Below, in pieces: positions 3,186 to 29,628 of a DNA stretch of 29,736 nt. Source of the stretch: a virus; IMG/VR virus record IMGVR_UViG_3300035206_000148, positions 1-29,736 of that record; one strand, written 5' to 3'. Positions within the stretch are counted from its first letter, which is position 1, and every line of letters begins with the position of its first letter. The notes beneath the pieces are model-generated. The model saw only the letters and a program-made list of their open reading frames with translations, was not told where the DNA came from and did no database searches. The position numbers were made by a program, and so were the translations under genes.

Positions 3186-3205
3186 TAATTAGATAATACT
3201 ATAAT

Positions 3206-3231
3206 ATATGAGGGGGTTAAACCCCTCATAT
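3206..3231 (+). terminator. Hairpin after capsid gene A (attenuator or mRNA-stabilising stem)
   Basis: The bases ATATGAGGGG (3206-3215) and CCCCTCATAT (3222-3231) form a perfect 10-bp stem with a 6-base loop, 20 bases after the capsid stop codon. No run of T follows, so it is not a textbook intrinsic terminator. A different stem occupies the same position after capsid gene B (29590-29620). This suggests a conserved role in limiting read-through or in protecting the 3' end of the abundant capsid message. Confidence 0.6.
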
Positions 3232-3237
3232 CACACT

Positions 3238-3336
3238 AGGAGAATAAGATATGGCGATGTCAACAGACGCAAATTTATTAGAATATTTACCAGAGATTCT
3301 TAATTATGGTATTGATGAATTTACTGATTATCACAG
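3238..3336 (+). repeat. Right anchor of the duplicated head region (99-base exact repeat)
   Basis: These 99 bases are identical to 29629-29727. They cover the ribosome site and the first 29 codons of the connector gene. Three adjacent mismatches follow (CCT at 3337-3339 against TAA at 29728-29730), then six matching bases to the window end. To the left, the intergenic sequences are unrelated apart from both forming a hairpin. Confidence 0.97.
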
Positions 3337-3673
3337 CCTGGCTCGAACCGACATCATTCGTAGACTTGGAAAAGACTGGTGGGTTAAATCTGGATGGTCA
3401 AATGAAATGGACGACACACTGTTAGACGAAACTCAATTTACTAAATGTGCTTCGTACTTAGTACTGTCAGAATATGCTCTACCACAACTTACAAAATGGA
3501 ACGCTGAAGGAGATGAAGATAAATTTCAAGTGATGATGAAACATTACAGTCACAAATATGAAGAAGAATTTAACGCAATATTATATGATGGTGTAAGATA
3601 TGATGCCGATGATGACGGTACAGTTACAGCGTCAGAAGAAAGACCAAAACATTTTAGTAGGTTAACAAGATAA
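3251..3673 (+). CDS. Probable head-tail connector (adaptor) protein
   Basis: This 140-residue protein is probably the first head-completion or adaptor protein that docks on the portal. It lies directly downstream of the capsid gene, where connector genes sit in siphoviruses, and its mostly helical, acidic composition fits. No motif identifies the family with certainty. Translation may start at 3251 or at the second ATG (3257); GGAG at 3239-3242 suits the first better. Its stop overlaps the next start as TAATG. A second copy of its first 31 codons closes the window (29642 onward), differing in an SL to SK change at residue 30. Confidence 0.7.
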   Translation: MAMSTDANLLEYLPEILNYGIDEFTDYHSLARTDIIRRLGKDWWVKSGWSNEMDDTLLDETQFTKCASYLVLSEYALPQLTKWNAEGDEDKFQVMMKHYSHKYEEEFNAILYDGVRYDADDDGTVTASEERPKHFSRLTR

Positions 3674-5392: not shown

Positions 5393-6810
5393 TGCCAAAT
5401 CAATACACAGCAAACATACAGATAAAGGCTCAAGATAAGGCTTCTGGATCTATCGATAGACTATCGAAGAAGTTTGACCCCCTTAATAGAAAAGCCCAGA
5501 AGTTCGACAAGAATATGTCGAAAGCAGACAAGTCTATAAAGAAGTCATCAAAATCTTTGAGCAAAATGAAGAAGATGATTGGTGCTGCCGCTGTTGCTGG
5601 AGCCGCATTTGCTGCCATCAAGATGGTAGGTAACAAAATCAACGACATGGATGAATTGGCGAAGTCAGCAAGAGCCGCGGGTGCCGCTTCATCTAATGAA
5701 GCATTCGCAGGATTTCAAGTATTAAAACAAGCAATGAGTGAAGCGGGTATTGAAGCCGCGACATATGATAGAGCATTGCTTCAGACTACACAAAGACTAC
5801 AAGCGGGCACAGAAGGACAGAAGTCATACAAGAAAGTAACAGACAAACTTGGTGACTCAATTAGAAACTCAAACGGCGAATTAAAGTCTGGTCCAGAATT
5901 ACTTGTAGCAATGACCAACGCTCTCAATGAGGGTAAAATAACCACTGAAGACTTCGCTAAAGTAGTAGGTGGTCGTGCTGGTCCTTTGATTCAGAATCAA
6001 TTTGCGTCAATTAACAAGACAGCAGAAGAATTACAAGCAACATTAGACGATACAGCAAAACACACAGACATCGTTCCATTGTCTGCTGCCAATAGTGCAG
6101 AGAAATTCAATGATACTATTTCTAGATTAAAACAAGGATTTGGTAAATTAATGACTAATGCTATTCAACCATTACTTCCACTACTTAATAAATTAGTCGA
6201 AGGAATGCTTAAACATATGCCCCCTATTATAAAAAAGATAGGATCAGCGTTCGCGGCTATAGGAGAAGTCTTGGGACCATTAGCAAAAGTATTACTCCCA
6301 TTAATATGGAAGGCATTATGGCCTGTTAGAACAGCATTCAAAGTACTGGGTTTCTATATTAAAAATATAATATTCCCAATATTCAAAGTATTGATAACGA
6401 TAGTGACAAAGGTTATAAAGGTTATTAGTGGCGTAGTTGATGGAATTATAAAGGCAGTTGACACAATTAAAAGTTTCGGCAAGGGGATTCTGAGATTCCT
6501 TGGATTTGATTTTGATGATGATTTGGAAGTAAGTGCGAATAAGAATGTTAATAATCAAGTGAAAGTATTAAGTGAAAAGATGGATGAAAAGGAAGAAGAA
6601 GTAAACGAAGCGGTTGAAAGAAATCTTGGACAAAAAGGTCCAGATAACAGGCTGACATCCTTAACAGTCAATGTCAACAAATTAACTGTTGATGGCGCAG
6701 ACCCAGTAGGAAGTCAAAAAGCATTGGCTCAATTGATTAAGGGTGTTGCGGCTCAAACAGCATTAGATATTATTGTTGAAAATCAGAAGCACGGAGGATT
6801 ATATGCCTAG
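5392..6810 (+). CDS. Tape measure protein (short)
   Basis: This 472-residue protein is predicted to span the tail lumen and set tail length. The N-terminal third is rich in Lys, Ala and Ser with coiled-coil heptads (e.g. FDKNMSKADKSIKKSSKSLS), followed by a hydrophobic alanine-rich stretch (MIGAAAVAGAAFAAIKM, about residues 62-78). Several hydrophobic, membrane-like segments lie at about residues 260-370 (IGSAFAAIGEVLGPL, VLLPLIWKALWPVR, IIFPIFKVLITIVTKV). The C-terminal part is charged and includes a coiled coil. Tape measures are usually longer than 600 residues, so the tail is expected to be short for a siphovirus. The gene begins on the T stop codon and overlaps the next gene by 8 bases. 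Confidence 0.88.
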   Translation: MPNQYTANIQIKAQDKASGSIDRLSKKFDPLNRKAQKFDKNMSKADKSIKKSSKSLSKMKKMIGAAAVAGAAFAAIKMVGNKINDMDELAKSARAAGAASSNEAFAGFQVLKQAMSEAGIEAATYDRALLQTTQRLQAGTEGQKSYKKVTDKLGDSIRNSNGELKSGPELLVAMTNALNEGKITTEDFAKVVGGRAGPLIQNQFASINKTAEELQATLDDTAKHTDIVPLSAANSAEKFNDTISRLKQGFGKLMTNAIQPLLPLLNKLVEGMLKHMPPIIKKIGSAFAAIGEVLGPLAKVLLPLIWKALWPVRTAFKVLGFYIKNIIFPIFKVLITIVTKVIKVISGVVDGIIKAVDTIKSFGKGILRFLGFDFDDDLEVSANKNVNNQVKVLSEKMDEKEEEVNEAVERNLGQKGPDNRLTSLTVNVNKLTVDGADPVGSQKALAQLIKGVAAQTALDIIVENQKHGGLYA

Positions 6811-15994: not shown

Positions 15995-16032
15995 ATACTG
16001 TAGTACAATAAATATTGTGTAGCCTACTAATA

Positions 16033-16073
16033 TGTCAATGCCATTTGACATTCCCGAGTAGATATGTTATAAT
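16033..16073 (+). promoter_or_regulatory. Perfect consensus promoter P2 (TTGACA-N17-TATAAT) with inverted repeat over the -35 box
   Basis: TTGACA (16045-16050) and TATAAT (16068-16073) are both exact consensus boxes with 17-base spacing. The -35 box is the right arm of an inverted repeat TGTCAA-N6-TTGACA (16033-16050), a possible operator. The expected start site, about 7 bases past the -10 box, falls at 16080, exactly where the structured RNA begins. Confidence 0.87.
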
Positions 16074-16080
16074 TGTACTT

Positions 16081-16190
16081 AGAATTGATAGGATGGTGGC
16101 GTCAGACGATGTGTTTCATACTCACATCATAAAAACAACGTCGTTGTTTTATATATTATCTTCTTAGAGGGTTCGCCATCCTACAATTCT
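16081..16190 (+). ncRNA. Candidate structured non-coding RNA, three-way junction core
   Basis: No protein-coding gene fits here. A long closing helix pairs 16081-16087 (AGAATTG) with 16184-16190 (CAATTCT), then after one bulged A, 16089-16096 (TAGGATGG) with 16076+100 to 16183 (CCATCCTA, 16176-16183). Inside it are two hairpins: GATGTG/CACATC (16108-16113 with 16123-16128, 9-base loop) and AAAACAA/TTGTTTT (16132-16138 with 16144-16150, loop CGTCG). About 20 unpaired bases remain before the 3' strand. The 5' end coincides with the predicted start of promoter P2. This matches no RNA family I know; a tRNA was considered and rejected. Together the helices and the promoter support an independently transcribed phage RNA. 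Confidence 0.62.
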
Positions 16191-16365
16191 TTCGGATTAT
16201 CCCCACAGAAACCAAAACAATTGCTCTTAGGAATTGCATCGCAATTCCCTCAAGCAAATGTGCGTAGCACATTTCACTATGTCACTAATACTAGTTACTT
16301 TTTACTACTTACTATTACTATTACTAGTATTCGCACACCTAAATCACATTTATAGCCGAAAACGC
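16191..16365 (+). other. Non-coding region with a cluster of three further stems
   Basis: This stretch between the RNA core and promoter P3 has no gene. It holds an 8-bp stem GGAATTGC/GCAATTCC with loop ATC (16230-16248), extended through a symmetric 4x4 internal loop by TTGCT/AGCAA (16221-16225 with 16253-16257). Next is an 8-bp stem AAATGTGC/GCACATTT with loop GTA (16256-16274). A 9-bp stem AATACTAGT/ACTAGTATT (16287-16295 with 16323-16331) closes a pyrimidine-rich 27-base loop. These may be the 3' part or termination region of the RNA that starts at 16080. No clear T-run terminator is seen. Confidence 0.55.
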
Positions 16366-16394
16366 TTGACTTCTATCTCTGATTATGCTATAAT
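16366..16394 (+). promoter_or_regulatory. Sigma70-type promoter P3 (TTGACT-N17-TATAAT)
   Basis: TTGACT (16366-16371) and TATAAT (16389-16394) have 17-base spacing. The upstream flank AAAACGC is shared with promoter P4. It drives the 179-residue gene at 16447, whose ATG follows AAGGAGATAAAGT. Confidence 0.85.
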
Positions 16395-16446
16395 TGATAA
16401 ATATTAAAGTATAATATTAAGAACTATACAATTAAGGAGATAAAGT

Positions 16447-16986
16447 ATGAAAAAAGCAGATTTACTAGAACAAGACGAAGTACTGGCTTATCAAATTGAC
16501 GTATTTGATAATGAAGCGAACAGATTACGTCAAAACAGAGAGAAAAAGCCAAACGCAACAGATTTCACTGTATCATTACGACTGGAAACAGAAAATACGG
16601 ATGGGTGGTTAAATCTTCAATCTCAGATAACAGTTGGAAGAAAACCCAGTCAAACCAAGAGGTCAATAAGAACAAAAGTTGATTTAGACATATTTAAGCA
16701 AATGGTGGCGTACAGAGAAGACTTTCATTTAACGAATAAAGTTGGATTTGATATTAAACCCGTCATATCATCCTTCTATAAGAAGCAGTGCAAGAGCGAG
16801 GGTATGATACCAAGTTTCTATTGTATGTTTCTGAAAGAAACTAATGAAGAACATTCGATTCTGCTTCAATTTGGTAATTGGAGAGAGTACATATTATTAA
16901 CTCAAAAAACAAGTGATACTCACACCATATATTCGGCGCAAGAACGATTTAGATATACGAACGAATTTAAGCGAAGAGGATATTAA
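16447..16986 (+). CDS. Unknown accessory protein (179 residues)
   Basis: I do not recognise this protein. It is hydrophilic, mixed alpha/beta and rich in charged residues, with no signal peptide or membrane segment. The first part is helical and acidic (MKKADLLEQDEVLAYQIDVF), then basic (RLRQNREKKPN), with a later beta-rich portion (SILLQFGNWREYILLTQ). It has its own consensus promoter (P3) and a strong ribosome site, so it is probably an early-expressed host-takeover or regulatory protein. Its stop overlaps the next start (TAATG). No DNA-binding or enzyme motif could be identified by eye. Confidence 0.75.
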   Translation: MKKADLLEQDEVLAYQIDVFDNEANRLRQNREKKPNATDFTVSLRLETENTDGWLNLQSQITVGRKPSQTKRSIRTKVDLDIFKQMVAYREDFHLTNKVGFDIKPVISSFYKKQCKSEGMIPSFYCMFLKETNEEHSILLQFGNWREYILLTQKTSDTHTIYSAQERFRYTNEFKRRGY

Positions 16987-17201
16987 TGATAGGATGTAGA
17001 ATAATCAATGGTACAGTATATGTTATTATTTACGATGATGGTAAATATTTCTTAGAACCAAAAACACGACCAGCCACCAATGCCGAGATAAAGCATATAA
17101 AAGAAAGAGAAGCAAGAAAGAAAATGGATGAAATCATAAAAGAAAGAGAAGCAAGAAAGAAAATGGATGAAATCATAAAAGAATATAAAAATAATCGATA
17201 A
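16986..17201 (+). CDS. Small unknown protein with charged helical tandem repeat (71 residues)
   Basis: The N-terminal half is a short beta segment (GCRIINGTVYVIIYDDGKYF). The C-terminal half is a charged helix containing two exact copies of the 13-residue unit KEREARKKMDEII plus the start of a third. The unit corresponds to a perfect 39-base DNA tandem repeat. The gene starts on the stop codon of the 179-residue gene (TAATG), so it is translated from the P3 transcript. The function is unknown; the helix could form a coiled coil or bind a partner. Confidence 0.7.
   Translation: MIGCRIINGTVYVIIYDDGKYFLEPKTRPATNAEIKHIKEREARKKMDEIIKEREARKKMDEIIKEYKNNR
17097..17174 (+). repeat. Perfect 2 x 39-base tandem repeat inside the 71-residue gene
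   Basis: Units 17097-17135 and 17136-17174 are identical, and nine bases of a third unit follow. The unit length is a multiple of three, so copy-number change would keep the frame. Perfect identity implies recent duplication. Confidence 0.95.
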
Positions 17202-20558: not shown

Positions 20559-22505
20559 ATGAATTACGAACTCAAGTTAGGCGACAACGCCGAAACACTC
20601 AAGCAATACCCAGACAATCACTTCGACAGCATCGTAACAGATCCGCCGTATGGAATAGAATTTCTCGGTAAAGACTGGGACAAGAACACAGGTGCTATTG
20701 AGACTTGGAATGAATGCTATCGAGTATTAAAACCAGGTGGTCATATTCTAGCATTCAGTGCCGCAAGAACATATCATCATCTAGCAACGAACATAGAGTC
20801 AGCAGGATTTGAGATAAGAGACCAGTTGATGTGGTTGTATGGCAGTGGATTCCCTAAAGCACAAGATATCGGTAAAGCAATAGACAAGAGAGCAGGAAAG
20901 AAAGACCCTAATTATGGCTCGGCAGGTGGACTTAACATTTCTTTCACCGAAAAGGGACCAATTGGGGGTCGTAGATGTATTAAATGTAACAAGGATTCTA
21001 AAGCAGAATATGAATGCAAAGAAGAAGATTGTGGACAGAAATACAAATACCAGACCGAAGAAGCACAACAATGGGCAGGTTGGAAGACAGCACTAAAACC
21101 AGCACATGAACCCATCGTTATGGCAAGAAAACCATTCAAGGGTTCTTGCGTAGATAATGTATTAGAACACGGTGTAGGTGCTATGAACATTGATGAGAGT
21201 AGAGTAGACACTGTTAGCGACAAAGAAATGGCTATGGGTCCAACAAGACATAATATTAAGAATAAATCTGCGACTGGTAACTTTGGAGCAGATGGATTAC
21301 TCGGAACAGAAACACAGCGTTATGATGAACAAGGTCGTTATCCATCTAATGTTATTATGGACGAAGAAGCAGGTCAAATATTAGATGAACAAGCACCGTT
21401 AAAACCAGCACATGAACCCATCGTTATGGCAAGAAAACCATTTAATGGTTCTTGTATTGATAATGTATTAGAACACGGTGTAGGTGCTATGAACATTGAT
21501 GAGAGTAGAATTCCTTATGAGAAAGACGCCCACATATTAAAACACAAAGGATATTGGGATGGCAGTTATGACAAAGAGACTCTAAATCCAGAGGTAGAAA
21601 AGTTTGGTGGGTCAAACAAAATAATAGTAAATGAACAAGGTCGTTATCCAGCAAATGTTATTATGGACGAAGAAGCAGGACAAATGTTAGATGAACAAGC
21701 ACCTAAATCTGGTAATGTTTCAAGTAGTAAACGAACTAAAACAGGTATGACTGGTTCTGGTCATTCACTTGCTTGGCATAAGAATGCTGGTGAGAGTAAC
21801 GGCATATCAGATGGATTAAGTGGAGCATCCAAGTTCTTCTATTGTCCTAAAGTCAGTCGTAAAGAAAGACACATAGGCTTTGAGAAAGACAATGAAAACC
21901 TTGACCATATTCCAACAAAGAAAAGAAAACATAAAGGTGATGCGTTCATTGGCGAAAAGGGTAAGCGTGGTGAGTTGTCTGTCTATGATGGTAAGAAAAA
22001 CCTTGACCATATTGAAACATTCAGTAGAGATAAAACAGACGATTCAAGTAGTGTTCAGATATTAAGAAAGAGAGATGAAAAGTTCAAGGAGAAGAAAAAC
22101 CTTGACCATATTCCAACACCATTTGGTGATGTAAAGGGCGGATATGATAATGGCAAAAGATTTGCGACAAAACACCAAGAATTACAAGCAAATAAACGAC
22201 CAAGAGGTGAAGCATTTGGTGATGGTAATCTATTAACAGACTCAACTAAATCATTAGGCAATAATCATCCAACAGTTAAACCTGTAGAGTTAATGAAGTA
22301 TCTCGTTAAACTCGTAACACCAGCAGGTGGTAAGGTGTTGGATCCGTTTAGTGGAAGTGGAAGTACAGGAATGGCGTGTGTTGAATTAGGTTATGAATAC
22401 ACAGGTTGCGAGTTAGACCCAGATTATATAGAAATAGCAACAAAAAGAATAGAAGGTTGGTATGAACATACAAGACCAGACAATAACTTTGATGAATTGT
22501 TTTAG
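20559..22505 (+). CDS. DNA amino-methyltransferase with duplicated internal domain (648 residues)
   Basis: This enzyme probably methylates an adenine N6 or cytosine N4 in DNA. Motif IV DPPYG is at residues 28-32, followed by KPGGHIL. The SAM-binding motif DPFSGSGSTG is near residues 595-604, preceded by HPTVKPVELM. The order IV then I is that of beta-class methylases. A Cys-rich zinc ribbon (RRCIKC … CKEEDCG, about 137-160) sits in the middle. Residues 179-280 and 281-382 are tandem copies of one segment (LKPAHEPIVMARKPF … GAMNIDESR … DEQAP). A ~34-residue NLDHI repeat follows (about 447-520). There is no restriction partner nearby, so it probably protects phage DNA from host restriction. Confidence 0.9.
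   Translation: MNYELKLGDNAETLKQYPDNHFDSIVTDPPYGIEFLGKDWDKNTGAIETWNECYRVLKPGGHILAFSAARTYHHLATNIESAGFEIRDQLMWLYGSGFPKAQDIGKAIDKRAGKKDPNYGSAGGLNISFTEKGPIGGRRCIKCNKDSKAEYECKEEDCGQKYKYQTEEAQQWAGWKTALKPAHEPIVMARKPFKGSCVDNVLEHGVGAMNIDESRVDTVSDKEMAMGPTRHNIKNKSATGNFGADGLLGTETQRYDEQGRYPSNVIMDEEAGQILDEQAPLKPAHEPIVMARKPFNGSCIDNVLEHGVGAMNIDESRIPYEKDAHILKHKGYWDGSYDKETLNPEVEKFGGSNKIIVNEQGRYPANVIMDEEAGQMLDEQAPKSGNVSSSKRTKTGMTGSGHSLAWHKNAGESNGISDGLSGASKFFYCPKVSRKERHIGFEKDNENLDHIPTKKRKHKGDAFIGEKGKRGELSVYDGKKNLDHIETFSRDKTDDSSSVQILRKRDEKFKEKKNLDHIPTPFGDVKGGYDNGKRFATKHQELQANKRPRGEAFGDGNLLTDSTKSLGNNHPTVKPVELMKYLVKLVTPAGGKVLDPFSGSGSTGMACVELGYEYTGCELDPDYIEIATKRIEGWYEHTRPDNNFDELF
21094..21705 (+). repeat. Tandem 2 x 306-base duplication within the DNA methyltransferase
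   Basis: Unit 1 (21094-21399) and unit 2 (21400-21705) align at a constant offset of 306 bases. Exact blocks include 43 bases from 21094 and 51 bases from 21153, and the last ~70 bases are near identical. The middle of each unit (after GAMNIDESR) is unrelated in sequence but equal in length. Confidence 0.95.
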
Positions 22506-25313: not shown

Positions 25314-26548
25314 TGCCGTTAACTAAAAATCAAGCGGTAGTTGCTAATTCAAAAAAAAGATTCCGCCTGATTGTAGGCGGTAGAAGATGGGGAAAATCAA
25401 TATTATCTGTTCGTGAACTGTGTAAAGTAGCAAGACATCCAGACAAGAGAGTTATGTACGTCTCGCCAACCTATCAAATGTGTAGAAATATTGTATGGAC
25501 ACCATTAAAGAATAAATTAAGAGATTTAAATTGGATAAAGAAAGTAAATGAATCAAGATTGGAGATACTATTGACGAATAATAGTCTTATAATGCTTAGA
25601 GGTGCCGATAATCCGGACTCACTCAGAGGAATTGGTCTGGATTTTTTGGTATGTGATGAGACGGCTGATTTGAAGCCCGAAGTATGGACTGAAGTACTCA
25701 GACCAACATTATCAGACAGACAAGGCTCAGCACTGTTCACAGGTACGCCAAAAGGTAAAGGCAATTATTTCTACGACTTATTCCAAACGGCGACCACAGA
25801 CGATAGTTGGGGGGCGTGGCAGTTTACAACAGCCGAAGGCGGAAATGTGTCAGAAGAAGAAATAGAAGCGGCTAAGAAAGGACTTGACAAAAAAACATTT
25901 GCTCAAGAGTATTTGGCCTCATTCGAAACATCTACAAATTTAGTGTACTATGCATTTAAACCAAAGAATAATGTAAAGAAATATAAAGAGAACAAACAAG
26001 AATTAAAGTCTATCTATGTTCTAACAGACTTTGGAGTAAGTCCAATGGCTACGTTGATAGCAGTGCCTACAGACACAGGACTATGGGTAATTGACGAGAT
26101 ATGCCTATATTCGAGTAATACTGACGAAATGGTACAAGAAGTGAGGATTCGTTATCCTCATCAACATATAACTTGTTTTCCGGATCCCGCTGGCGTTCAA
26201 CGTCGGTCCAGTGCGGGTGGCAGAACAGATATATCAATATTACAGAACGCAGGATGGGATGTTAGATATAAAAGAAGAGCACCATTAGTGCGTGATAGGG
26301 TCAATGCTACCAATTCTTTACTGCTAAATAGTAATGATGAATGTAGATTGTTTATTGACCCAAAATGCAGAGAATTGATTAAATCATTAACAAGATTTAG
26401 TTACAAGGAGAATACGCTTATTCCTGATAAAGGTGGTAAAAATGATTACTCACATTTTCCAGATGCGTTAGGATATGGGGTTGACTATATGTTTCCTGTG
26501 TCAAGAGAAATTGAACCACAAACACAACAAGTATTTGGATTGTATTAA
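25313..26548 (+). CDS. Terminase large subunit (complete)
   Basis: This 411-residue packaging motor has an ATPase domain with Walker A GGRRWGKS at residues 22-29, Walker B LDFLVCDE at 109-116 with the catalytic glutamate E116, and a coupling motif FTGTPKGKG near 147-155. The C-terminal RNase H-like nuclease has acidic D near 238 (LTDFGVSP), DPAG near 287, and the late HFPDALGYG near 380. It lies between TerS and portal B. Bases 26367-26493 of this gene are identical to bases 1-127 of the window; the last 18 residues differ from copy A. It is a short TerL, within the normal range. Confidence 0.93.
   Translation: MPLTKNQAVVANSKKRFRLIVGGRRWGKSILSVRELCKVARHPDKRVMYVSPTYQMCRNIVWTPLKNKLRDLNWIKKVNESRLEILLTNNSLIMLRGADNPDSLRGIGLDFLVCDETADLKPEVWTEVLRPTLSDRQGSALFTGTPKGKGNYFYDLFQTATTDDSWGAWQFTTAEGGNVSEEEIEAAKKGLDKKTFAQEYLASFETSTNLVYYAFKPKNNVKKYKENKQELKSIYVLTDFGVSPMATLIAVPTDTGLWVIDEICLYSSNTDEMVQEVRIRYPHQHITCFPDPAGVQRRSSAGGRTDISILQNAGWDVRYKRRAPLVRDRVNATNSLLLNSNDECRLFIDPKCRELIKSLTRFSYKENTLIPDKGGKNDYSHFPDALGYGVDYMFPVSREIEPQTQQVFGLY
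26367..26493 (+). repeat. Left anchor of the duplicated head region (127-base exact repeat of positions 1-127)
   Basis: These bases match positions 1-127 exactly, and the first difference is C128 against T26494. The repeat is coding sequence near the end of TerL, not an intergenic terminal repeat. The length equals a k-mer size commonly used by de Bruijn graph assemblers. Confidence 0.97.
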
Positions 26549-26562
26549 AGGAGAAATATAAT

Positions 26563-27966
26563 ATGTCTTACCTAACTAAAGAAACGATAAACGATGTTCA
26601 TCCAGTCTATGCGTCACATCTACCAAGATGGCGGTATTATTGGGCATCATTTAATGGTGGATTCGATTATCGTAAGAGTGGACTAGAGATGCTTCGTCGA
26701 TATATGAACGAGGATCAACAACCTGGTAACCAATATTCAGCAAGATTAAATTATACAGCATTAGAGAATAGTTGTAAACTAGTAATAGAAACTTATAAAG
26801 CATTCTTGTTTAGAAGTCTTCCAGTTAGAACATTAGGTAATCTCAATAAACTTCCATATACAAAGGATTTCATTAATGATGTTGATTTGGATGGAACCGA
26901 CATTGATGCTTTTATGAAAGAAGCAAACACATTGTCAATGATTTACGGACACTGTTGGATTTTAGTAGACAAACCACAATCGCCAACAGCAATAACATTA
27001 GAACAAGAGATTGAACAAGGTATCAGACCATATGCTCAATTGATTTCTCCGGAAAACATACTAGACTGGAAATATGAAAGAATAAACGGTCGTTATATAT
27101 TATCATACTTAAAGCAAAAAGAATTCGAAGATGATGATAATTTAACTATACGTGAATGGACAATGGATTCCGTTGTTCGATACAATTATGATAAAACTGG
27201 TAAAGGAACTGTAACAGTATTAGAAGATTTATCAAACAAAATAACTCAAATTCCATTTGCTATGATAAAGGCAAATCCATCACATATACGCGGAATAGGA
27301 ATGTCTGATTTAGCCGATGTTGCTAAAATACAACAAGCAATCTTTAACTTGATGTCAGAGGCAGAGCAAGCCATACGCATAAGTTCCCATCCATCTCTCG
27401 TAAAAACAGCGTCAACGGACGCATCCGCGGGCGCAGGTGCAATAATCACAATGGATGAGCAGATGCCAGGGGAATTAAAACCGTTCTTATTACAACCCTC
27501 AAGTGCTAACATTGATGCTATTATAAAAGTATTAAAAGAGCACCAAACAATGATTATGAAAACCACACACCTAGAAGCAGTAGTCGGACAAAAGACCGTA
27601 GCCAAATCAGGTGTTGCTCTTCAAACAGAATTTAGTATGTTAAACACACGACTAGGTGATAAAGCAGACTCATTAGAAAGACTAGAATATAAGATATGGA
27701 ATTTATTCCAGTTATGGACTGGAGTTCAGGCAGATGAAGATTTTAGAATTGAATATAAGAAGAAATTTGATTTGCGTGATGAAAATAATGACCTAGCAAA
27801 TTATCAGACAGTCCGTGATATGGGGATCCCAAGCATAAAACTAACACAAGAATTAGACAAGCAGATAGCAATGATTGTCGTTAAGAATGGTGATATTTTA
27901 GATGAAATTGTTGAAGAAATTGACAATTCTAATACAAAGGATATTGACCAAAATGAAATTAAATAA
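26563..27966 (+). CDS. Portal protein, head cassette B
   Basis: This 467-residue portal is a clear homologue of the protein at 198-1577, with conserved SARLNYTALENSCKLVIETY, RPYAQLISPENILDWKY, DLADVAKIQQAIFNLM and the alanine/glycine tract SAGAGAIITMDEQ. The sequences differ throughout, including the N-terminus (MSYLTKETINDVHPVYASHL). Length and architecture agree, so both could be functional. The ATG follows AAGGAGAAATATAAT. The acidic C-terminus (DEIVEEIDNSNTKD) matches the acidic end of portal A. It directly follows the complete TerL by 14 bases. Confidence 0.9.
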   Translation: MSYLTKETINDVHPVYASHLPRWRYYWASFNGGFDYRKSGLEMLRRYMNEDQQPGNQYSARLNYTALENSCKLVIETYKAFLFRSLPVRTLGNLNKLPYTKDFINDVDLDGTDIDAFMKEANTLSMIYGHCWILVDKPQSPTAITLEQEIEQGIRPYAQLISPENILDWKYERINGRYILSYLKQKEFEDDDNLTIREWTMDSVVRYNYDKTGKGTVTVLEDLSNKITQIPFAMIKANPSHIRGIGMSDLADVAKIQQAIFNLMSEAEQAIRISSHPSLVKTASTDASAGAGAIITMDEQMPGELKPFLLQPSSANIDAIIKVLKEHQTMIMKTTHLEAVVGQKTVAKSGVALQTEFSMLNTRLGDKADSLERLEYKIWNLFQLWTGVQADEDFRIEYKKKFDLRDENNDLANYQTVRDMGIPSIKLTQELDKQIAMIVVKNGDILDEIVEEIDNSNTKDIDQNEIK

Positions 27967-27976
27967 ATACTAATAG

Positions 27977-27994
27977 TAGAGTGATTTTACTCTA
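27977..27994 (+). other. Short hairpin between portal B and scaffold B
   Basis: TAGAGT (27977-27982) pairs with ACTCTA (27989-27994) around GATTTT, eleven bases after the portal stop. The stem is AT-rich and weak. There is no equivalent between portal A and scaffold A. It may be a minor mRNA processing or attenuation element, or chance. Confidence 0.35.
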
Positions 27995-28021
27995 ATATTA
28001 ACTACTCCCAAGGAGGATACT

Positions 28022-28690
28022 ATGACTAACATAGACCAACAAGTAGGCACCAGCGAGCAAATAGAAGAAACTGAGACTTCTGCTGAAACTCAAACTCAGG
28101 TAATAGCAAAGACTTTTACACAAGAGGAAGTTGATGGCATCGTAAAAACACGACTTAATAAAGTCAATAAGAAATACGAAGGCATTAACTTATCAGAGTA
28201 TAAGACTTTGAAAGAAGAAAAAGAGAATGCTAAAGTAGAAGAACAAAAAGCAAGAGGCGAGTTCGAATCAATTCTTAACGAACAGAAAGAAAAGTTCGAA
28301 GTACGATTCAATAACTTAACTCAACAACTTCATAAAGAGAAAGTAGAGGGAGCGATATTAAAAGCGGCAGGTAGCAGAAATGCTGTAGATCCGGCGCAAG
28401 TAGCACAATTGCTACAAAATCGTGTTAAACTTTCAGACGATGGAGAAGTTCAAGTTCTCAACGATGGAGGCGAAGTGATGTACGATACTGATTCAGCAAC
28501 ACCAGTTACTATCGACACTTTAGTGAATAATTTTCTTGACTCTTCACCGCATTTCTTAAGAGCGGGTCCGAGTGGTTCGGGTTCAACTGGAAATGTAGGG
28601 GAATCAGCAGATGAAACGGATATTTCTAAGTTAGACTTATCTGACCCGTCTCAGAGAGCGATTTATGCCAAATTAAAGGCAAATCGCTAA
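28022..28690 (+). CDS. Capsid scaffold protein, head cassette B
   Basis: This 222-residue protein has the same plan as the one at 1622: an acidic start, a motif KTFTQEEVDGIVKTRL (compare RNFSQADVDKIVQARL in A), then YKTLKEEKENAKVEEQKARG coiled coil, a conserved SRNAVDPAQVAQLL block, and a Ser/Gly-rich linker before a DLSDPSQRAIYAKLK end. It has a strong AAGGAGGATACT ribosome site. It would serve capsid B assembly. Scaffold and capsid are expected to be matched, which explains why they move together. Confidence 0.82.
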   Translation: MTNIDQQVGTSEQIEETETSAETQTQVIAKTFTQEEVDGIVKTRLNKVNKKYEGINLSEYKTLKEEKENAKVEEQKARGEFESILNEQKEKFEVRFNNLTQQLHKEKVEGAILKAAGSRNAVDPAQVAQLLQNRVKLSDDGEVQVLNDGGEVMYDTDSATPVTIDTLVNNFLDSSPHFLRAGPSGSGSTGNVGESADETDISKLDLSDPSQRAIYAKLKANR

Positions 28691-28726
28691 TTAAATTAAT
28701 ATTATCTAATAAAAGGAGATAAAATT

Positions 28727-29581
28727 ATGGCTACAGTAACAGATACAGATGTAACCAATGCCGGTGATTTAGCAGGCTTGCTCGTAAGTGCTAGACAAGA
28801 TGCCATCTATGCTGGTTATGAGAGTTCGCTTTACTTACCAGGTATCATTATGAACACACATAATGTACCAAACGGTTCAGTAACGGCGCAAATTCCAAAG
28901 TTTACTGCTCTAAGCAACTCGGATGTTTCAACAGAAGCATACAACGAAACAACTAACACTATTAGTGAGTTAGACATTGTTAATATTGCTAACAGTGGAG
29001 TTGATGTAACCGCTAAAACATACGCTGCCAGGGCTTTACTAAAAGACTTGGGCGGTATGAATGCTGGTTCAGTTGGAACAGTTCTAGGACGTGCAGTATC
29101 AGAGAAATTTGATACAGATGTTGCGTCATTATTCACAACAGTGACAGCGAGTGCAGGTACGTCAGGCTCAGCCTTGACTATCGATATGCTCGCCACAGCG
29201 GCACAAACAGTTAGAGCGGCTAGACATACTGGTCAACTTAACGCTGTGCTTCACCCAGGACAAGTAGAAGACATTCTTCAAAACTTGGCAGGTGCAGACT
29301 TTGCCGGTACTGATGCTCTTAACGAAGCATTGGCAAATGGCGCTGTTGGATCTTTGTTCGGTATGAACATATGGCAATCAGCCCTTGTGGATGACGATAA
29401 TACTGACTACACAGGATGTGTGTGGGCAGAGAATGCTTTCGGCATTGCGATGTTTAAGGGGCTGGATGTTCAATCCGCTGCCAATATCGCTGGCTTAGGA
29501 CATGACATAGTTGCATCTTTACACGCAACAGCGGCACTAGTTGATACAACTCGTGCTTGTAAAATCATATCAGCAAGTTAA
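28727..29581 (+). CDS. Major capsid protein, head cassette B
   Basis: This 284-residue capsid protein is homologous to the one at 2346, with shared ESSLYLPG, VPNGSVTAQIP, KTYAARALLKDLGG and GTVLGRAVSEKFDTDV patterns, and it ends …LVDTTRACKIISAS. The identity to capsid A is low enough that the two are distinct lineages, not recent copies. Its codon use is even along the gene. A strong AAAAGGAGATAAAATT ribosome site precedes it, and a perfect 14-bp stem follows 8 bases after the stop. Confidence 0.88.
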   Translation: MATVTDTDVTNAGDLAGLLVSARQDAIYAGYESSLYLPGIIMNTHNVPNGSVTAQIPKFTALSNSDVSTEAYNETTNTISELDIVNIANSGVDVTAKTYAARALLKDLGGMNAGSVGTVLGRAVSEKFDTDVASLFTTVTASAGTSGSALTIDMLATAAQTVRAARHTGQLNAVLHPGQVEDILQNLAGADFAGTDALNEALANGAVGSLFGMNIWQSALVDDDNTDYTGCVWAENAFGIAMFKGLDVQSAANIAGLGHDIVASLHATAALVDTTRACKIISAS

Positions 29582-29589
29582 TCTAATAA

Positions 29590-29620
29590 GATATGAGAGT
29601 GATTAAATCACTCTCATATC
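29590..29620 (+). terminator. Perfect 14-bp hairpin after capsid gene B
   Basis: GATATGAGAGTGAT (29590-29603) pairs perfectly with ATCACTCTCATATC (29607-29620) around loop TAA. The position relative to the capsid stop and the connector ribosome site is like that of the 3206-3231 stem, but the sequence is different. There is no T-run, so partial attenuation or 3'-end protection is more likely than full termination. Confidence 0.65.
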
Positions 29621-29628
29621 TTAGACAA

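Follow-up and report, generated by a model that had tools for sequence, protein, structure and literature searches.

HK022 put RNA consists of two compact stem-loops, about 70 nt in all. The packaging RNA (pRNA) of phi29 is a phage RNA of about 110–120 nt, in which a 5'/3' closing helix bounds a junction of hairpins; its sequence conservation is low and its structural conservation high, and it is defined by complementary right- and left-hand loops (GG/CC based) used for ring assembly (PMC12670572). Phage regulatory small RNAs in general have been reviewed elsewhere (PMC12197685).

The element described here comes from a small uncultured marine phage of a group distantly related to the pelagiphages. 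The window analyzed is the 29,736-nt stretch at positions 1–29,736 of IMG/VR virus record IMGVR_UViG_3300035206_000148, and coordinates refer to this window unless a relative is named.

Genomic setting, promoter, and fold

The RNA locus lies at the boundary where the tail genes end and small, probably early, genes begin. Its 5' neighbors are a tail J protein and a 1331-aa ORF; on the 3' side follow small ORFs without family matches, HNH-like proteins, a DNA methylase, structural-like genes, TerS, and TerL. TerL matches PF03237 and PF04466, the TerS-like gene matches phrog_309, and among named phages the terminases come closest to those of Pelagibacter phages HTVC111P and HTVC202P (about 47% identity). 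Of the phage proteins tested, none was recognized as serving replication or transcription. The promoter and the RNA comprise the following features:

16032..16051, no strand assigned: inverted repeat ATGTCAA-TGCCAT-TTGACAT (7-bp arms), overlapping the -35 box (read directly)
16045..16073, + strand: sigma-70 promoter TTGACA-17-TATAAT with TG before the -10 box (extended -10), predicted start about 16080 (sequence)
16080..16192, + strand: structured RNA domain 1, about 112 nt (fold, stem compared with random positions, model from relatives)
16081..16099, + strand: 5' strand of closing helix P1, with bulged A16088 (fold, covariation with relatives)
16108..16128, + strand: P2 hairpin, loop UUUCAUACU at 16114–16122 (fold and relatives)
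16132..16150, + strand: P3 hairpin AAAACAAC-GUC-GUUGUUUU (fold)
16156..16165, + strand: UUAUCUUCUU, putative antisense segment, partly within the mini-hairpin at 16158–16172 (sequence)
16173..16190, + strand: 3' strand of closing helix P1 (fold, covariation with relatives)

The perfect promoter that the initial annotation saw firing at about 16080 is borne out at the level of sequence: the site scores 12/12 for sigma-70 and carries an extended -10. The 29.7-kb window has two 12/12 sites in all. Six sites score at least 11/12, five of them on the + strand in the 15.5–19 kb module and the sixth on the minus strand within the portal gene. The other + strand promoters of the module (15499, 16366, 17207, and 18911) each have a start codon at most about 80 nt behind them, whereas the 16045 promoter is the exception, with no start codon close behind. 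The inverted repeat across the -35 box is a possible operator.

Nucleotides 16081–16087 are predicted to pair with 16184–16190, and 16089–16099 with 16173–16183, giving an interrupted 18-bp helix. This helix begins where it had first been placed, at 16081, and the 15 bp then assigned to it were an underestimate. The two hairpins and the size of about 110 bases likewise stand. The three-way junction does not, because the minimum free energy (MFE) fold adds a third mini-hairpin at 16158–16172 and makes the window fold strictly a four-way junction; the RNA of one relative, L105, does fold as a three-way junction. The 16080–16192 fold has a z score of -6.0, with 0/200 shuffles as good, and the P1 stem energy was equaled at 0/600 random window positions. 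The longest uninterrupted Watson–Crick run, 8 bp, is unremarkable alone (p = 0.03); it is the whole interrupted helix that is striking. The structured RNA at 16080–16192 is not a product of chance but a real RNA element.

Several repeats were observed elsewhere in the window. The terminase end and the portal-to-capsid genes are present twice (1–151 versus 26367–26517, and 198–2987 versus 26587–29395); the two copies of the 151-bp stretch are 97% identical, and beyond them the copies are only about 25–55% identical as protein. L006 and L007 continue the 24.9–26.5 kb stretch straight into window 1–3.9 kb. Judging from these sequences, the contig is probably a genome of roughly 26.4 kb plus a chimeric end from another strain. 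Close to the window end lies a near-perfect 37-nt palindrome (hairpin, 29587–29623), and the 151 bp around it match window 3201–3345 at 89%. The 71-aa ORF at 16986–17201 contains a 39-bp exact tandem duplication (17097–17174), and the DNA methylase gene (21094–21703) has an internal duplication of about 300 bp with 74% identity.

Relatives and structural conservation

Rfam has no family matching the RNA (6S, tmRNA, riboswitches, or any other), at the gathering score or at E up to 10, which agrees with the initial annotation that no known family fits. A tRNA/tmRNA search found none, and DNA similarity to 50,697 phage records was absent for the RNA region, the whole window, and L105. The RNA family appears to be new. 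Direct blastn of the RNA against fetched relatives gave no real match, and the relatives were therefore scanned by structure, the criterion in related contigs being a strong promoter with a transcript whose initial 28 nt can pair with the 50–170 nt that come next. One outstanding site was found in each of the window, L079 (G004), and L081 (G003) (0/600 random). L105 (G030) and L106 (G031) were recruited through a small protein whose gene lies immediately 5' of the RNA and have the same arrangement; the promoter-plus-stem test gave 0/500 random for L105 and 0.002 for L106.

The site lies at the end of the tail module and the start of the small-gene module in all four relatives, and in each of them the stem begins with the predicted +1. 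The fold is far beyond chance in 5/5 RNAs (the window and the four relatives). L081 is assigned by architecture and position, not by sequence, and L095 (G013) may hold a more distant example (p about 0.006). The stem scan turned up nothing convincing of this kind in HTVC111P-type isolates, DSL-LC06, and several other records, and no relatives emerged when related loci were scanned for with the 16447 protein or with the C-terminal half of the 1331-aa ORF.

MAFFT misaligned the stems of the five RNAs, and covariation was therefore taken from L105/L106 and from hand-aligned stems. The alignment of lower P1 was made by hand from predicted stems, with one bulged window base left out. All 66 of its pairs are canonical and pure Watson–Crick, none being broken, and both sides have changed in 6–10 of the 11–14 pairs compared in each comparison. 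Compensatory changes in the closing helix, which the initial annotation had proposed as its own test, are thus present in the relatives. Between L105 and L106, 16 of the 63 predicted pairs across both domains are compensatory, and the long stems are unbroken. Higher in the stem and in domain 2, some pairs are G–U. The window, L105, and L106 have the segment GUUUCAUAC in common at the P2 hairpin loop. L105, L106, and L079 resemble one another at the top of P1 (AUGRCGA/UCGYCAU), a likeness that is looser in the window.

Further evidence comes from a covariance model built from L105 and L106 only, with an internal L106 insertion of about 48 nt left out of the input. Its top-ranked hit in the window is 16078–16192 (19.7 bits, rough E 0.007), an E-value that is supportive rather than decisive because a pure long hairpin at 29584 comes close to it (19.3 bits). 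The model also recovers L079, and the best non-family score in 1 Mb of other loci is 14.9. The phage RNA element is conserved in structure, not in sequence.

In L105, L106, and L079, domain 1 gives way to another long-stem domain, domain 2, which runs directly into the ribosome-binding region of a small ORF; neither a terminator nor another strong promoter separates the RNA from the ORF. The leader measures about 270–310 nt in L105 and L106, where the two stem domains stand directly end to end, and about 240 nt in L079. The window differs from the relatives after domain 1, with other hairpins, a second promoter, and a different gene:

16230..16248, + strand: hairpin GGAATTGC-ATC-GCAATTCC (fold)
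16257..16275, + strand: hairpin AAATGTGC-GTA-GCACATTT (fold)
16288..16331, + strand: 9-bp stem AATACTAGT/ACTAGTATT with a TACTA-rich loop (fold)
16366..16394, + strand: second promoter, 11/12, serving the next gene (sequence)
16447..16986, + strand: first downstream ORF, 179 aa, no match in Pfam or PHROGs

Domain 2 is not recognizable there, and the relatives' small ORF is not seen among the window ORFs. This ORF is also present in another genomic context without the RNA (L111–L116). As a separate observation, promoters at L111 1213, L112 3355, L114 5300, and L115 3022 (minus strand) lead into a GTTGTAGA...TCTACAA stem, then another hairpin, with no obvious ORF, a possible further RNA family.

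A proposed cis-acting leader and the alternatives

The element is most likely cis-acting, because domains 1 and 2 form the 5' leader of the small ORF in three relatives. We propose, with about even confidence, that it is a cis-acting, 5'-end-locking regulatory leader on early messages. The strong sigma-70 promoter at the boundary between tail and small genes would start a transcript whose first nucleotides become locked into the long P1 stem, closing a multi-hairpin domain of roughly 110 nt. P1 may shield the 5' end from decay, and the exposed loops (P2 with UUUCAUAC, and P3) could set the translation or processing of the early message. Shorter 5' hairpins are predicted to begin other mRNAs of the phage group. 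The leader role is not direct in the window, because a separate promoter precedes the next gene and the relatives' small ORF is not seen there. The element offers a covariation-backed RNA family candidate for uncultured marine phages, here one with no replication or transcription gene recognized among the proteins tested, and an RNA heading the small-gene module would be a concrete, testable control point for expression timing by host machinery.

The main rival to a cis leader is a trans-acting antisense RNA, which we regard as possible but not probable. Such a small RNA, freed by processing or by trimming of read-through, would pair with early phage mRNAs at their Shine–Dalgarno or start regions. 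UUUCAUACU can pair with AGUAUGAAA, and UUAUCUUCUU with AAGGAGAUAA, in collinear order where the next gene starts; the latter pairing, between 16156–16165 and the Shine–Dalgarno region at 16434–16443, can be complete with one G–U. AGTATGAAA occurs twice on the + strand of the window, both times at gene starts (16444 and 18983). Predicted start-region pairing beats that of dinucleotide-shuffled loops (mean p 0.05; for the best five, p 0.01), and the best start-region target in L105 is GGAGATAGTATGAAA (p 0.002), but these statistics are modest and were made after looking, and the whole L105 gene set has no enrichment (p 0.27). Shine–Dalgarno regions favor any U/C-rich RNA, and the antisense segment is partly paired in the fold. 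The window, L079, L105, and L106 show no intrinsic terminator behind the RNA, nor is there one on the + strand of the window across 14.5–18 kb.

The initial annotation described an independently transcribed small RNA. A structured RNA with its own promoter-like sequence is indeed present; since no terminator follows it in the window and the RNA occupies a 5' leader position in three relatives, the small-RNA reading is only partly supported. The decoy role suggested for it found no support. A small RNA, and with it trans action, keeps some probability because the equivalent interval of L097 (G014) holds an ORF-free unit running from promoter to terminator. Read in reverse, L097 has structured noncoding stretches at 5568–5775 and 6092–6281 with strong intrinsic terminators (stem plus T8), the second having its own 11/12 promoter and no ORF. 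Both are likely stand-alone small RNAs, and given these terminated units in the equivalent interval, stand-alone RNAs probably exist in the group.

Two other sets of sites were noted in related contigs. Another promoter-driven RNA is predicted on the minus strand of L038 (about 5231–5070), L039 (about 7029–6868), and L050 (about 1790–1628), with a common TTCCTG..ACAATGTTTA and a CGGGTG hairpin loop whose flanking pairs have changed; it has no match in named phages. L023 carries three 12/12 promoters (2300, 2410, and 2526), 110–116 bp apart, each with TTGACAGTGGCG... and no obvious ORF between them.

A broader proposal, which we consider rather doubtful, is a new phage RNA class of fast-evolving sequence and fixed shape. 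Its 5'-locking stem and bipartite anti-start/anti-Shine–Dalgarno surface would act on early genes in trans and on its own operon in cis.

It is unlikely that the element works like put RNA, with the nascent structure modifying RNA polymerase for read-through of pauses or terminators in the early operon. Its place directly 3' of a strong promoter where a gene module begins would suit this role, as would the end-to-end stem domains of L105 and L106. However, the domains, at 110–160 nt, are far above the size of put RNA, strong promoters of their own serve the module's later genes, and 14.5–18 kb offers no + strand intrinsic terminators to overcome. We also think it improbable that the element is an inverted repeat acting at the DNA level, as a protein site, a cruciform, or a replication origin, and folds as RNA only incidentally. 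Pure Watson–Crick lower stems in 5/5 are what DNA repeats would be expected to have, and with no replication gene recognized among the tested proteins an origin could be sought here; against this, the stem begins at the predicted +1 in every relative, and the upper stem and domain 2 contain G–U pairs. A replication origin is unsupported, since DnaA boxes are not enriched and the GC skew shows no turn.

The statement that no gene fits the element holds. Its sole ATG frame (16093–16167, 24 aa) has no Shine–Dalgarno site, its start is buried in P1, and relatives do not preserve it. A gene for a short leader peptide beginning at this ATG is thus very improbable, even though the ATG falls within the stem and its equivalent in L105 opens a frame of 37 codons: a one-base indel separates L105 from L106 inside the frame, and in L079 the product would be only six residues long. 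A packaging RNA working like phi29 pRNA is hardly credible, since, despite the 5'/3' closing helix, the multi-hairpin junction, and the variable sequence with conserved structure, the phage has an ordinary small and large terminase, the window loops UUUCAUACU and GUC share no 3-nt complement of the right/left type, and Rfam gives no pRNA match.

Comparison with known systems

As an observation, the element is confirmed: it is real, structure-conserved, and unclassified, with a cis leader as the best-supported reading and a mechanism that we infer throughout. It resembles phi29 pRNA in having a multi-way junction closed by a 5'/3' helix (four-way in the window MFE fold, three-way in L105), and differs in its conventional TerS/TerL setting, its leader position in relatives, and its lack of a match to Rfam Bacteriophage_pRNA. 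Like HK022 put, it is a structured RNA directly downstream of a strong phage promoter, with two adjacent stem domains in L105/L106; unlike put, domain 1 of the window alone has about 112 nt and four helices, the L105/L106 leaders reach 270–310 nt, and there are no terminators nearby. Like phage regulatory small RNAs, it is noncoding, is encoded by a phage, and may base-pair with mRNAs of the phage or its host, whereas here no terminator follows, relatives conserve the RNA as a 5' leader, and target pairing is predicted only. As in 5'-end-protecting mRNA leaders, the 5' nucleotides are held in a stem at +1, but the domain here is far larger and multi-hairpin, includes a shared loop segment, and is joined in relatives by a second domain.
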